64,000 nucleotides of DNA from Actinokineospora pegani (GTDB lineage Bacteria; Actinomycetota; Actinomycetes; Mycobacteriales; Pseudonocardiaceae), in assembly GCF_009745975.1 (NCBI RefSeq), contig NZ_WHOL01000121.1:1-64000 (forward strand). The letters run 5' to 3'. Every line of letters begins with the position of its first letter. The stretch's first letter is position 1. Made by a program: the position numbers and the translations under genes. Below are positions 10,911 through 13,411 of the stretch, piece after piece. The notes below the pieces were generated by a model. That model saw only the letters and a list, made by a program, of their open reading frames with translations, was not told the DNA's origin and searched no databases.

Positions 10911-11648
10911 GTGGATGTGACACAGCCGCGCACCGGCGGTCACACGGCCGTGCTGCTGCCCGGCACCGGCTCCGACGACCGGTTCGTCCGGGCCGTGTTC
11001 GAACGCCCGCTGGCGATCGTCGGCGTGCGGCTCGTGGCGCCCCGCCCCCAGCCCGGTCCCGACCTGCTCACGGCCCATCTGGCGGCCCTGGACGAGGCCG
11101 CGGCGCACGGCCCGGTCCTGGTCGGCGGGATCTCGCTGGGCGCGCACCTGGCGGCCGAGTGGGCGGGCCGCAACCCCGACCGGTGCGCCGGTCTGCTGCT
11201 GGCACTGCCGGGCTGGACGGGTGAGCCCGACGAGGCCCCGGCGGCGGTCGCCGCCACCCACGGCGCGGCGGACGTGCGGGCGCGGGGTGTCGAGGCCGCG
11301 CTGGAGACCGCCGTGGCGGGGGTGGCGCCGTGGCTGGCCGAGGAGCTGACCCGCGCGTGGACCGGCTACGGCCCCGCGCTGGCCGACTCGATGCTGGCCG
11401 CCGCGGGCCACGCCGCGCCGACGGCCGAGGAGCTGGCCCGGCTGGACGTGCCCGCCGGGGTCGCCACCTGCCTCGACGACCCGGTGCACCCGACCGAGGT
11501 GGCCAGGCGGTGGGCGCGGGCGCTGCCGAGGGCGGCGCTGACGACCACGCGCCTGGACATCATGGGGGCCGACCGCGAGGCGCTCGGGCGCGCCGCGGTG
11601 CTCGGACTGCTGCGCGCCCGCTCCGGGCAGACCTTCCAGCCCGGCTAG
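10911..11648 (+). CDS. Alpha/beta hydrolase (Rv2695 type)
   Basis: 245 residues. An LLPGTGSDDRF oxyanion-side loop and a GISLGAHLA nucleophile elbow (GxSxG) are clear; no lid domain is evident. The substrate is unknown. GTG at 10911 has AGGGGG 5-10 nt upstream. Its TAG stop shares bases with the stop of the convergent DUF3710 gene: the two stop codons lie inside one CTAG (11645-11648). Confidence 0.87.
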   Translation: MDVTQPRTGGHTAVLLPGTGSDDRFVRAVFERPLAIVGVRLVAPRPQPGPDLLTAHLAALDEAAAHGPVLVGGISLGAHLAAEWAGRNPDRCAGLLLALPGWTGEPDEAPAAVAATHGAADVRARGVEAALETAVAGVAPWLAEELTRAWTGYGPALADSMLAAAGHAAPTAEELARLDVPAGVATCLDDPVHPTEVARRWARALPRAALTTTRLDIMGADREALGRAAVLGLLRARSGQTFQPG

Positions 11649-12310
11649 CCGGGCTGGCCCGGCTGCTGCTCGCCCTGCTGGGCGGCGGCGATGTGCTCGA
11701 CGATGGCCTGCGGCAGGTCGATCTGCAGCGGGGTGCGCACCGGCATCGGCTGCCCGCCGCGGACCACGACGGTGTTGCGGATCAGCTCGCGCAGGCCCAT
11801 CGCGGAGTTGTCCGCGAGCTGCGGCGGGCCAGCGACCACGCCGCGCAGCATCCAGCGCGGGCCGTCGACGCCGATGAACCGCAACTGCACCTCACCGAGC
11901 GAGGCCGAGAGCTCCTGGCCCCAGTCGCCGACGACGCTGCGGACCGTGGCCCCGTCGGCGCGCAGCTGCTCGGCGAGTTCGCCGCACACCTCCTTCCACA
12001 GCCCGCCCGACTTCGGCGCGGCGTAGCCGTTGAGGGTGAGCTGGCCGAGCTGGGTCAGGATGTGCACCGCGCGCACCGGCCCGGCCGGGTCCATCTCGAC
12101 CTGCAACTGGGCGCCGTCGGGCACCGGGATTCGCAGTGAGCCCAGGTCGAGCCGGGCGAACTGGTCGTCGGGGGCGTCAGCCTCGTCGTAGGGACCCGTC
12201 TCGCCGTCGTCGTCGGCGTCCACGGTGTCCACGTCGTCGAGGACCTCGTCCCGACGCGCCGCGCCCGAACCGTGCCCCACGGCGCCCTTGCGGCGACCGA
12301 ACAGTGCCAC
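11645..12310 (-). CDS. DUF3710 protein (Rv2696c type)
   Basis: 221 residues. After an acidic N-terminus (residues 15-50, Asp/Glu-rich) the conserved DUF3710 core follows (RLDLGSLRIPVPDG, WGQELSASLGEVQLRFIGVD, GPRWMLRGVVAGPP). The family is restricted to actinobacteria, lies next to dut in many genomes, and has no known activity. GTG start at 12310 with GGAGG 4 nt upstream. Confidence 0.92.
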   Translation of the reverse strand: MALFGRRKGAVGHGSGAARRDEVLDDVDTVDADDDGETGPYDEADAPDDQFARLDLGSLRIPVPDGAQLQVEMDPAGPVRAVHILTQLGQLTLNGYAAPKSGGLWKEVCGELAEQLRADGATVRSVVGDWGQELSASLGEVQLRFIGVDGPRWMLRGVVAGPPQLADNSAMGLRELIRNTVVVRGGQPMPVRTPLQIDLPQAIVEHIAAAQQGEQQPGQPG

Positions 12311-12343
12311 TGCTCCTCCGTCCCGACTTCCCTCGTGCGCGGC

Positions 12344-12365
12344 GGACCGGCCGATCTGCCGGTCC
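12344..12365 (-). terminator. Hairpin downstream of dut
   Basis: GGACCGG and CCGGTCC pair across an 8-nt loop, 14 nt after the dut stop and before the DUF3710 start. No T-run, as is usual in high-GC actinomycetes. Confidence 0.4.
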
Positions 12366-12379
12366 CCCAGTCATGCAAG

Positions 12380-12847
12380 CTAGTCCTGCTGTCCAGTGAG
12401 CACAGCGTGCCCGCCGGTCGACCCGTGCCCGCCGGCTCCGCGCTCGGTGTCGTCGAGCGCCTCGACCACGCGGAACACCGCCTGCTCGACCCGCTGCACC
12501 ACCAACTGCGCTATCCGGTCCCCGCGCCGCAGTGCGATCGGCTCCACCGGGTCGTGGTTGACCAGGCAGACCAGCACCTCGCCGCGGAAGCCGGAGTCGA
12601 TCGTGCCCGGCGCGTTGACGATGCCCAGCCCGGTGCGGGCGGCCAGGCCGGAGCGCGGGTGCACGAACCCGGCGTACCCCGCGGGCAGCGCGAGCGCCAC
12701 CCCGGTGCCCACGACCGCCCTGGCACCCGGTTGGAGCACCACGTCGGTCGTCGTCGCCAGGTCCGCCCCCGCATCACCCGGACGGGCGTACGCGGGCAGC
12801 GGGACCCCGGGATCGAGGTGGACGAGCGGGACCTCCACGACGGACAC
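12380..12847 (-). CDS. dut: dUTP diphosphatase
   Basis: 155 residues, the usual length of trimeric dUTPase. All five motifs can be followed: PGDAGADL (motif 1), [14 protein letters not shown] (2), [14 protein letters not shown] (3), [10 protein letters not shown] (4) and the C-terminal Arg/Gly-rich [11 protein letters not shown] (5). It converts dUTP to dUMP plus pyrophosphate, keeping uracil out of DNA and feeding dTMP synthesis. GTG at 12847 is preferred by length and by a TAGTCT -10 box 8 nt upstream; GTG at 12838 is also in frame. Confidence 0.95.
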
Positions 12848-12855
12848 GAGCGGCG

Positions 12856-12865
12856 AGACTACCCT
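12856..12865. promoter_or_regulatory. Shared bidirectional -10 element (dut / DUF3093)
   Basis: AGACTACCCT reads as TACCCT on the plus strand, 6 nt before the DUF3093 GTG, and as TAGTCT on the minus strand, 8 nt before the dut GTG. The two boxes overlap at a central TA. Only 24 bp separate the two start codons, so both mRNAs should be leaderless or nearly so and the promoters should exclude each other. Confidence 0.65.
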
Positions 12866-12871
12866 GGTGCC

Positions 12872-13363
12872 GTGACCGACTCCTCGGGCGGCACGCGCCC
12901 AGAAGCGACCTCCCCGCCCGCCTACGCCGAGCGGCTGCACGTCACCTGGTACTGGTGGCCGCTGCCCCTGCTGGCAGGCGCCCTCCTCGCCGCGGAGATC
13001 CACATGGGCTACCCCGGCGTGCGGGCGTGGCTGCCCTACGTGATCGTGCTGCCGCTGGTGCTGGTGATGCTGTGGCGCGCCGGGCGGACGCCGGTGCGGG
13101 TGCGCGACGGCAAGCTGCTCGTCGCCGAGGCGAACCTGCCGCTGGAGCACGTCGGCGAGGTCGAGGTGTTCGGCAAGGACGACAAGCGCCAGGTCCTCGG
13201 CAGGCGGCTGGACCCGGCGGCGTTCGTCGCGCACCGCGGTTGGGTGGGCCCGGTGGTGCGGGTGCGCGTGGAGGACCCCGCGGACCCGACCCCGTACTGG
13301 CTGTTCTCCACCCGGCACCCCGAGCGGCTGGCCGCGGCGCTGCGGGCCCGCAGCACGGCGTGA
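12872..13363 (+). CDS. DUF3093 membrane protein (Rv2698 type)
   Basis: 163 residues. Two hydrophobic segments ([18 protein letters not shown] and [16 protein letters not shown], residues about 30-70) precede a cytoplasmic PH-like domain containing [17 protein letters not shown] and [17 protein letters not shown]. The family is conserved beside dut across actinobacteria, with no known function. GTG at 12872 lacks a Shine-Dalgarno but has TACCCT at -12 to -7, so it is probably translated from a leaderless mRNA. Confidence 0.9.
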
Positions 13364-13365
13364 AC

Positions 13366-13411
13366 GGCCAGGGAGCCGGGCGCCTCGGGTGAGGCGCCCG
13401 GCTCCCTGGCC
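13366..13411. terminator. Bidirectional terminator hairpin, 21-bp perfect stem
   Basis: The arms 13366-13386 and 13391-13411 are exact reverse complements around a GGGT loop. It lies between the convergent DUF3093 and DUF4193 genes and can serve both. Confidence 0.85.

Follow-up and report, generated by a model that had tools for sequence, protein, structure and literature searches.

The dut and DUF3093 genes of Actinokineospora pegani are divergently transcribed, and the 24 bp between their start codons hold the whole of a 10-bp element, AGACTACCCT, in which a predicted -10 hexamer on one strand overlaps a second one on the other strand. From comparison of sequences, and with a probability of about 0.8, this element is read as a SigA-type bidirectional promoter with a single TA core, predicted to give two leaderless mRNAs. 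Concerning its novelty, the best reading is that it would be a deeply conserved new case of a known kind of promoter. The element lies in a "window" of 64,000 nucleotides (positions 1 to 64,000 of contig NZ_WHOL01000121.1), and the features around it are collected in Table 1.

Table 1. The shared element and the surrounding features in the window, with start codons taken from sequence.
Feature	Positions	Strand	Details
DUF3710 gene	11645..12310	-	3' of dut
dut (deoxyuridine triphosphatase)	12380..12847	-	155 aa; PF00692 (E 6.4e-29)
dut GTG start codon and predicted transcription start (G 12847)	12845..12847	-	start predicted from spacing
Shared double -10 element AGACTACCCT	12856..12865	both	TA 12860-12861 common to both hexamers
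-10 hexamer TAGTCT of dut	12856..12861	-	8 nt gap to GTG; GGG (SRN) ahead, 12864-12862
-10 hexamer TACCCT of DUF3093	12860..12865	+	6 nt gap to GTG; GAC (SRN) ahead, 12857-12859
DUF3093 GTG start codon and predicted transcription start	12872..12874	+	start predicted from spacing
DUF3093 protein gene	12872..13363	+	163 aa; PF11292 (E 3.3e-54)

An earlier note, made from the letters of the window, had named both genes and placed the element, its two hexamers, their gaps of 6 and 8 nt and the 24 bp between the starts; the placements are exact in the sequence, and the gene names hold by the Pfam matches of Table 1. The DUF3710 gene is possibly cotranscribed with dut, judging from its orientation. 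The DUF3093 protein displays hydrophobic stretches (by eye), which perhaps locate it in the membrane. In M. smegmatis, dut is essential, and its complementation made use of a 337-bp upstream fragment (PMC3360063). In M. kansasii, a DUF3093 gene is found in an essentiality-prediction table, with an insertion-site caveat (PMC10470612).

Both genes possess a TANNNT about 7-12 bp ahead of an RTG at the predicted +1, and each predicted start is a G preceded by a C. No consensus -35/-10 pair occurs within positions 12300-13400, and a standard promoter of this type was rejected on that count. These traits are those of mycobacterial and actinobacterial leaderless promoters, with TANNNT near an RTG, an SRN triplet and no -35 (PMC3898074, PMC4633059, PMC6448022, PMC3160421). 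In M. tuberculosis, the SRN triplet precedes 49% of TANNNT promoters without being obligatory, and no -35 motif is reported (PMC3898074). Mycobacteria translate mRNAs starting with ATG or GTG (PMC4633059), and M. smegmatis prefers G at +1 and C at -1 (PMC6448022). Unlike in such promoters, the two hexamers here lie on opposite strands and each contributes to the motif of its partner.

Divergent promoters made of overlapping symmetric -10 hexamers, to which the earlier note had likened the element, are indeed known: those described by Warman et al. 2021, as reported in PMC10268837, have -10 elements that reciprocally overlap on opposite strands. The divergent starts of these "-10-symmetry" promoters are 7-25 bp apart, most commonly 18 bp with positions -7 and -11 coinciding, and on the chromosome they are biased to intergenic regions of divergent genes (PMC10268837). 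The dut/DUF3093 element resembles them in the overlap of its hexamers on opposite strands, the feature that defines the kind, in its divergent genes, and in a distance between starts (12847 and 12872) predicted from spacing at 25 bp, within the 7-25 bp range. It differs from the 18-bp class in that the hexamers have only the TA step (-12/-11) in common; the -7/-11 coincidence, absent here, is a trait of that class and not part of the definition. According to the same source, promoters of this kind arise frequently from -10 symmetry, and their second transcript is in many cases a non-coding antisense RNA, whereas both products here are coding and predicted to be leaderless. M. tuberculosis also possesses closely juxtaposed divergent promoters, and in one example, Rv1130 and Rv1129c, both mRNAs are leaderless (PMC3898074). 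The present pair is likewise divergent and close, its leaderless state being a prediction, and in the pertinent passages of PMC3898074 there is no description of a -10 core common to both strands and no mention of the dut/DUF3093 pair. No account of a shared dut/DUF3093 element was found among the literature matches listed (titles and abstract starts), which is not proof of absence, and Rv2698 as a whole word was not mentioned in the literature searched.

Spacing across genes was examined in a sample of 1047 called genes (contig C121, on which the window lies, and contig C61 of the window's own genome G000, contig C5 of G100, and 400 kb of G012, this last stretch being without its own copy of the locus). 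A TANNNT precedes an in-frame start at a gap of 6, 7 or 8 nt in 78, 45 and 26 genes, respectively, against a mean background of 10.2 genes per gap over 9-60 nt. A simpler caller, applied to 301 genes of the window's own genome, gives 32, 6 and 9 at the same gaps versus 3.4 per gap over 20-60 nt. By these counts, the leaderless signature of the sampled genomes is a TANNNT with a gap of 6-8 nt to the start. Of these gaps, the 8 nt observed at dut occurs least often (26 vs 78 and 45). Among 190 divergent pairs, only two carry a doubly leaderless shared element, and both are this locus (in G000 and G100). The simpler caller lost dut under a long DUF3093 frame, so its own pair count misses the locus; the caller used for the 1047 genes, which trims starts by codon usage, recovers dut.

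A second match to the flanked pattern is observed at C61:76998-77027 of G000 (L143 1501-1530) and may represent another TA-sharing element. On one strand, TAGGGT is followed after 6 nt by the GTG of a possibly leaderless gene that resembles a sigma factor (by eye); TACCGT stands on the other strand, with the next ATG ~43 nt downstream of that hexamer. It was rejected as a second doubly leaderless pair because its minus side runs into a stop (by eye).

The comparison with orthologs that the earlier note had proposed was run on loci in which a script located in-frame starts near the aligned regions and sought TANNNT 5-8 nt (plus strand) or 5-9 nt (minus strand) upstream. Rows dropped before counting were L001, L125, L142 and L144 (repeats of the window's own genome), L127 (from the genome already represented by L045) and L143 (a different locus); the relatives counted are not independent of each other. 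DUF3093 is present in 120 of the 120 genomes drawn from the window's family, two of which, G100 and G119, belong to the window's genus code g1. All 120 loci were read (window + 30 + 80 + 9), and the shared TA occurs in the double register in 113 of them. The remainder comprises four loci with separate boxes, all four from genus g43, two with the plus-strand box only (g37), and one without a dut match (G045). Outside the family but within the order, 26 genomes with DUF3093 give 18 shared elements (17 in g47, one in g51), six split loci and two others. Outside the order but within the class, where 192 genomes have a DUF3093 match, the 33 examined yield no shared element, two two-box loci and 23 others, the remaining 8/33 being without a dut match in the stretch. 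Since the double arrangement is kept in 113/120 family and 18/26 other order genomes, the element is, by its conservation, far beyond chance. By expectation, a window would hold the exact 10-mer 0.01 times, and a chance 10-mer was rejected on the same conservation.

Named records, which overlap the unnamed set so that the two counts are not additive, give a second survey: the best 80 of 588 confirmed loci comprise 75 shared elements, among them those of Mycolicibacterium sp. GF69 and Mycobacterium sp. IS-3022, one split locus (Nocardia transvalensis) and four others. The intergenic sequences of genus g47 match the named Mycobacterium loci L277 and L279, and this genus looks Mycobacterium-like on that basis. 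One record, L225, is titled Nocardia sp. NRRL S-836 and is probably misnamed, its DUF3093 being 66% identical to the window's, as compared with 52% for the Nocardia loci L283 and L284.

Several individual loci depart from the common arrangement. In L030 and L081 (g37) and in L238 (Thermocrispum agreste), the element ACATTACTCT is present with the dut start farther off, which would give dut a leader there. In G045 (L127 around 1250-1450), a congener of the window's organism, ~110 codons are missing in frame from within dut, which leaves a frame of 47 codons beside an intact shared element, and no match to the dUTPase family was found elsewhere in that genome (E up to 0.001); the shortening may be either a real loss or an assembly error. 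L134 (g51) carries the shared element AGACTACGCT, the other two sampled members of its clade having separate boxes, and its core may be retained or newly fused.

The geometry of the 131 shared loci is tight. The dut gap measures 8 nt in 129/131, and a distance of 24-26 bp between the starts is likewise found in 129/131. DUF3093 gaps of 6, 7 and 8 nt number 86, 40 and 5, and start codons are RTG in all 131 and GTG/GTG in 120. When several in-frame starts are allowed, further dut gaps show a box as well (17 nt in 55/131, for example), and given these further starts a later dut codon with a short leader could be used. The palindromic consensus ASRNTANYST, which is the mycobacterial SRN-TANNNT box read on both strands, fits 128/131 loci, so that SRN precedes TANNNT on each strand there, and three break it. 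Positions A1, T5, A6 and T10 define the shared class, hence their invariance is by construction and provides no separate evidence. The other six positions were free to vary: position 2 is G or C in 130/131, position 3 A or G in 131, position 8 C or T in 129, and position 9 C or G in 131. By comparison, generic boxes 6-8 nt before starts (n=149, 1.18-Mb sample) display SRN in 50% and SRN plus opposite-strand YS in 22%. Position 7 is C in 131/131 and position 4 only C or T, a constancy that exceeds what the -10 model requires.

Fourteen order-level loci lack the shared form. Ten of these possess a TANNNT of their own for each gene, 6-8 nt ahead; in these split loci the dut box is at 8 nt in nine and at 6 nt in one. 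In all 14 loci, DUF3093 has its box 6-7 nt ahead. Each gap outside 5-9 nt is occupied, on average, in 0.17 (dut) and 0.06 (DUF3093) loci. The spacing to each gene is thus kept when the core is not shared. The loss of a hexamer in close relatives that still express both genes had been raised by the earlier note as a point that would count against it, and such a loss was looked for on sequence: genus g43 (four sampled genomes) has lost the shared core, and each gene there has its own TANNNT, at 8 nt for dut and at 6-7 nt for DUF3093. In the 25 class loci outside the order that have dut, the dut box is at 6, 7 or 8 nt in 4, 2 and 8 loci (14 in total) and the DUF3093 box at 6-7 nt in three, which makes leaderless dut look older than the fusion. 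As none of these 25 loci is shared, the fused state is probably derived. A tree was built from 87 rows chosen among the loci, with a single shared locus for each genus apart from g47 and with short-protein rows left out; on it, the fewest changes between shared and not shared are four, three of them forced by starred branches, against a shuffled mean of 21.1. The tree fits one fusion followed by several splits as well as several fusions, and genus g43 sits in it on a long branch, apart from its family.

Other explanations of the conserved block were weighed against the bidirectional promoter. It is unlikely that only one hexamer, most probably TACCCT of DUF3093, is a real -10 and that dut starts elsewhere, the other hexamer being a by-product of the conserved TA. 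This would suit the DUF3093 box, which sits at the commonest leaderless spacing (6 nt), as well as the two g37 loci that keep the element though their dut start has moved. It sits badly with a dut box that holds its distance almost without exception in shared loci and, at 8 nt or in one case 6 nt, in split ones, and that outside the order is met at leaderless spacing far more often than the DUF3093 box (14/25 vs 3/25). Conservation of the block as coding sequence, in an N-terminal extension of either gene, can scarcely be right. The window shows an open frame upstream of each gene, and a further upstream in-frame start comes before a stop in 98/131 loci for dut and 44/131 for DUF3093, but a stop precedes any other in-frame start in 15/131 and 26/131, respectively, and changes at position 4 hit the first codon position of the dut frame. 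The three DUF3093 gaps moreover place the block in all three frames, on which ground coding conservation was rejected.

An operator for a DNA-binding regulator of both genes, including a locus-specific one, would account for conservation above the need of a bare -10, with an invariant C at position 7 and strongly kept adjoining bases (CG on the left, G on the right). This reading is very improbable, as the accepted substitutions obey the double SRN-TANNNT pattern and TANNNT is kept at each gene in split loci. The pattern AGAYTACCCT has a single match in the 6.44-Mb genome (vs two for a reversed-pattern control), so that, for this pattern, it does not recur at other promoters; a dispersed operator was rejected on this match count. 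The role of both hexamers as -10 boxes of leaderless genes, put forward in the earlier note, is backed by comparative evidence: the register, the substitutions, the split loci and the 6-8 nt peak.

Under the bidirectional-promoter reading, the primary (SigA/HrdB-type) RNA polymerase would use the 10-bp element as its core promoter. The TANNNT hexamers on the opposite strands have one TA step in common, and the SRN triplet ahead of each lies within the other, a mutual placement that makes the whole element palindromic. Polymerase bound one way would start at the DUF3093 GTG and, bound the other way, at the dut GTG, the two initiations yielding two leaderless mRNAs. The predicted G at +1 preceded by C in both genes, together with the M. 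smegmatis preference, points to a SigA-type core used both ways. As a single core cannot melt in both directions at once, the two initiations are expected from the geometry to compete, and each half-site, together with its spacer, would contribute to the ratio of the outputs. The earlier note had proposed that one polymerase at a time could "decide" which mRNA is made. No sign of a regulator or switch at the element was found in this analysis, and a competition that keeps the ratio fixed is therefore a more fitting sense of the word than switching. It may be, more tentatively, that dUTPase and DUF3093 are coupled without a regulator, one core serving one gene at a time and fixing the ratio of their mRNAs. 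Selection might then have kept the boxes fused through the family and the Mycobacterium-like genus, neither gene being able to leave without copying the core; this remains a doubtful proposal.

PMC10268837 speculates that evolution gradually removes bidirectional promoters; here, such a promoter appears as a conserved design. Two coding genes, both predicted to be leaderless, with dut being essential in M. smegmatis (PMC3360063), would depend on one TA core, whose tolerated changes fit the promoter rules of both strands, and natural lineages exist in which the two boxes are separate. The fused and split lineages may thus serve as a comparative system for two questions, namely whether initiations in the two directions compete and whether fusion of the boxes matters.
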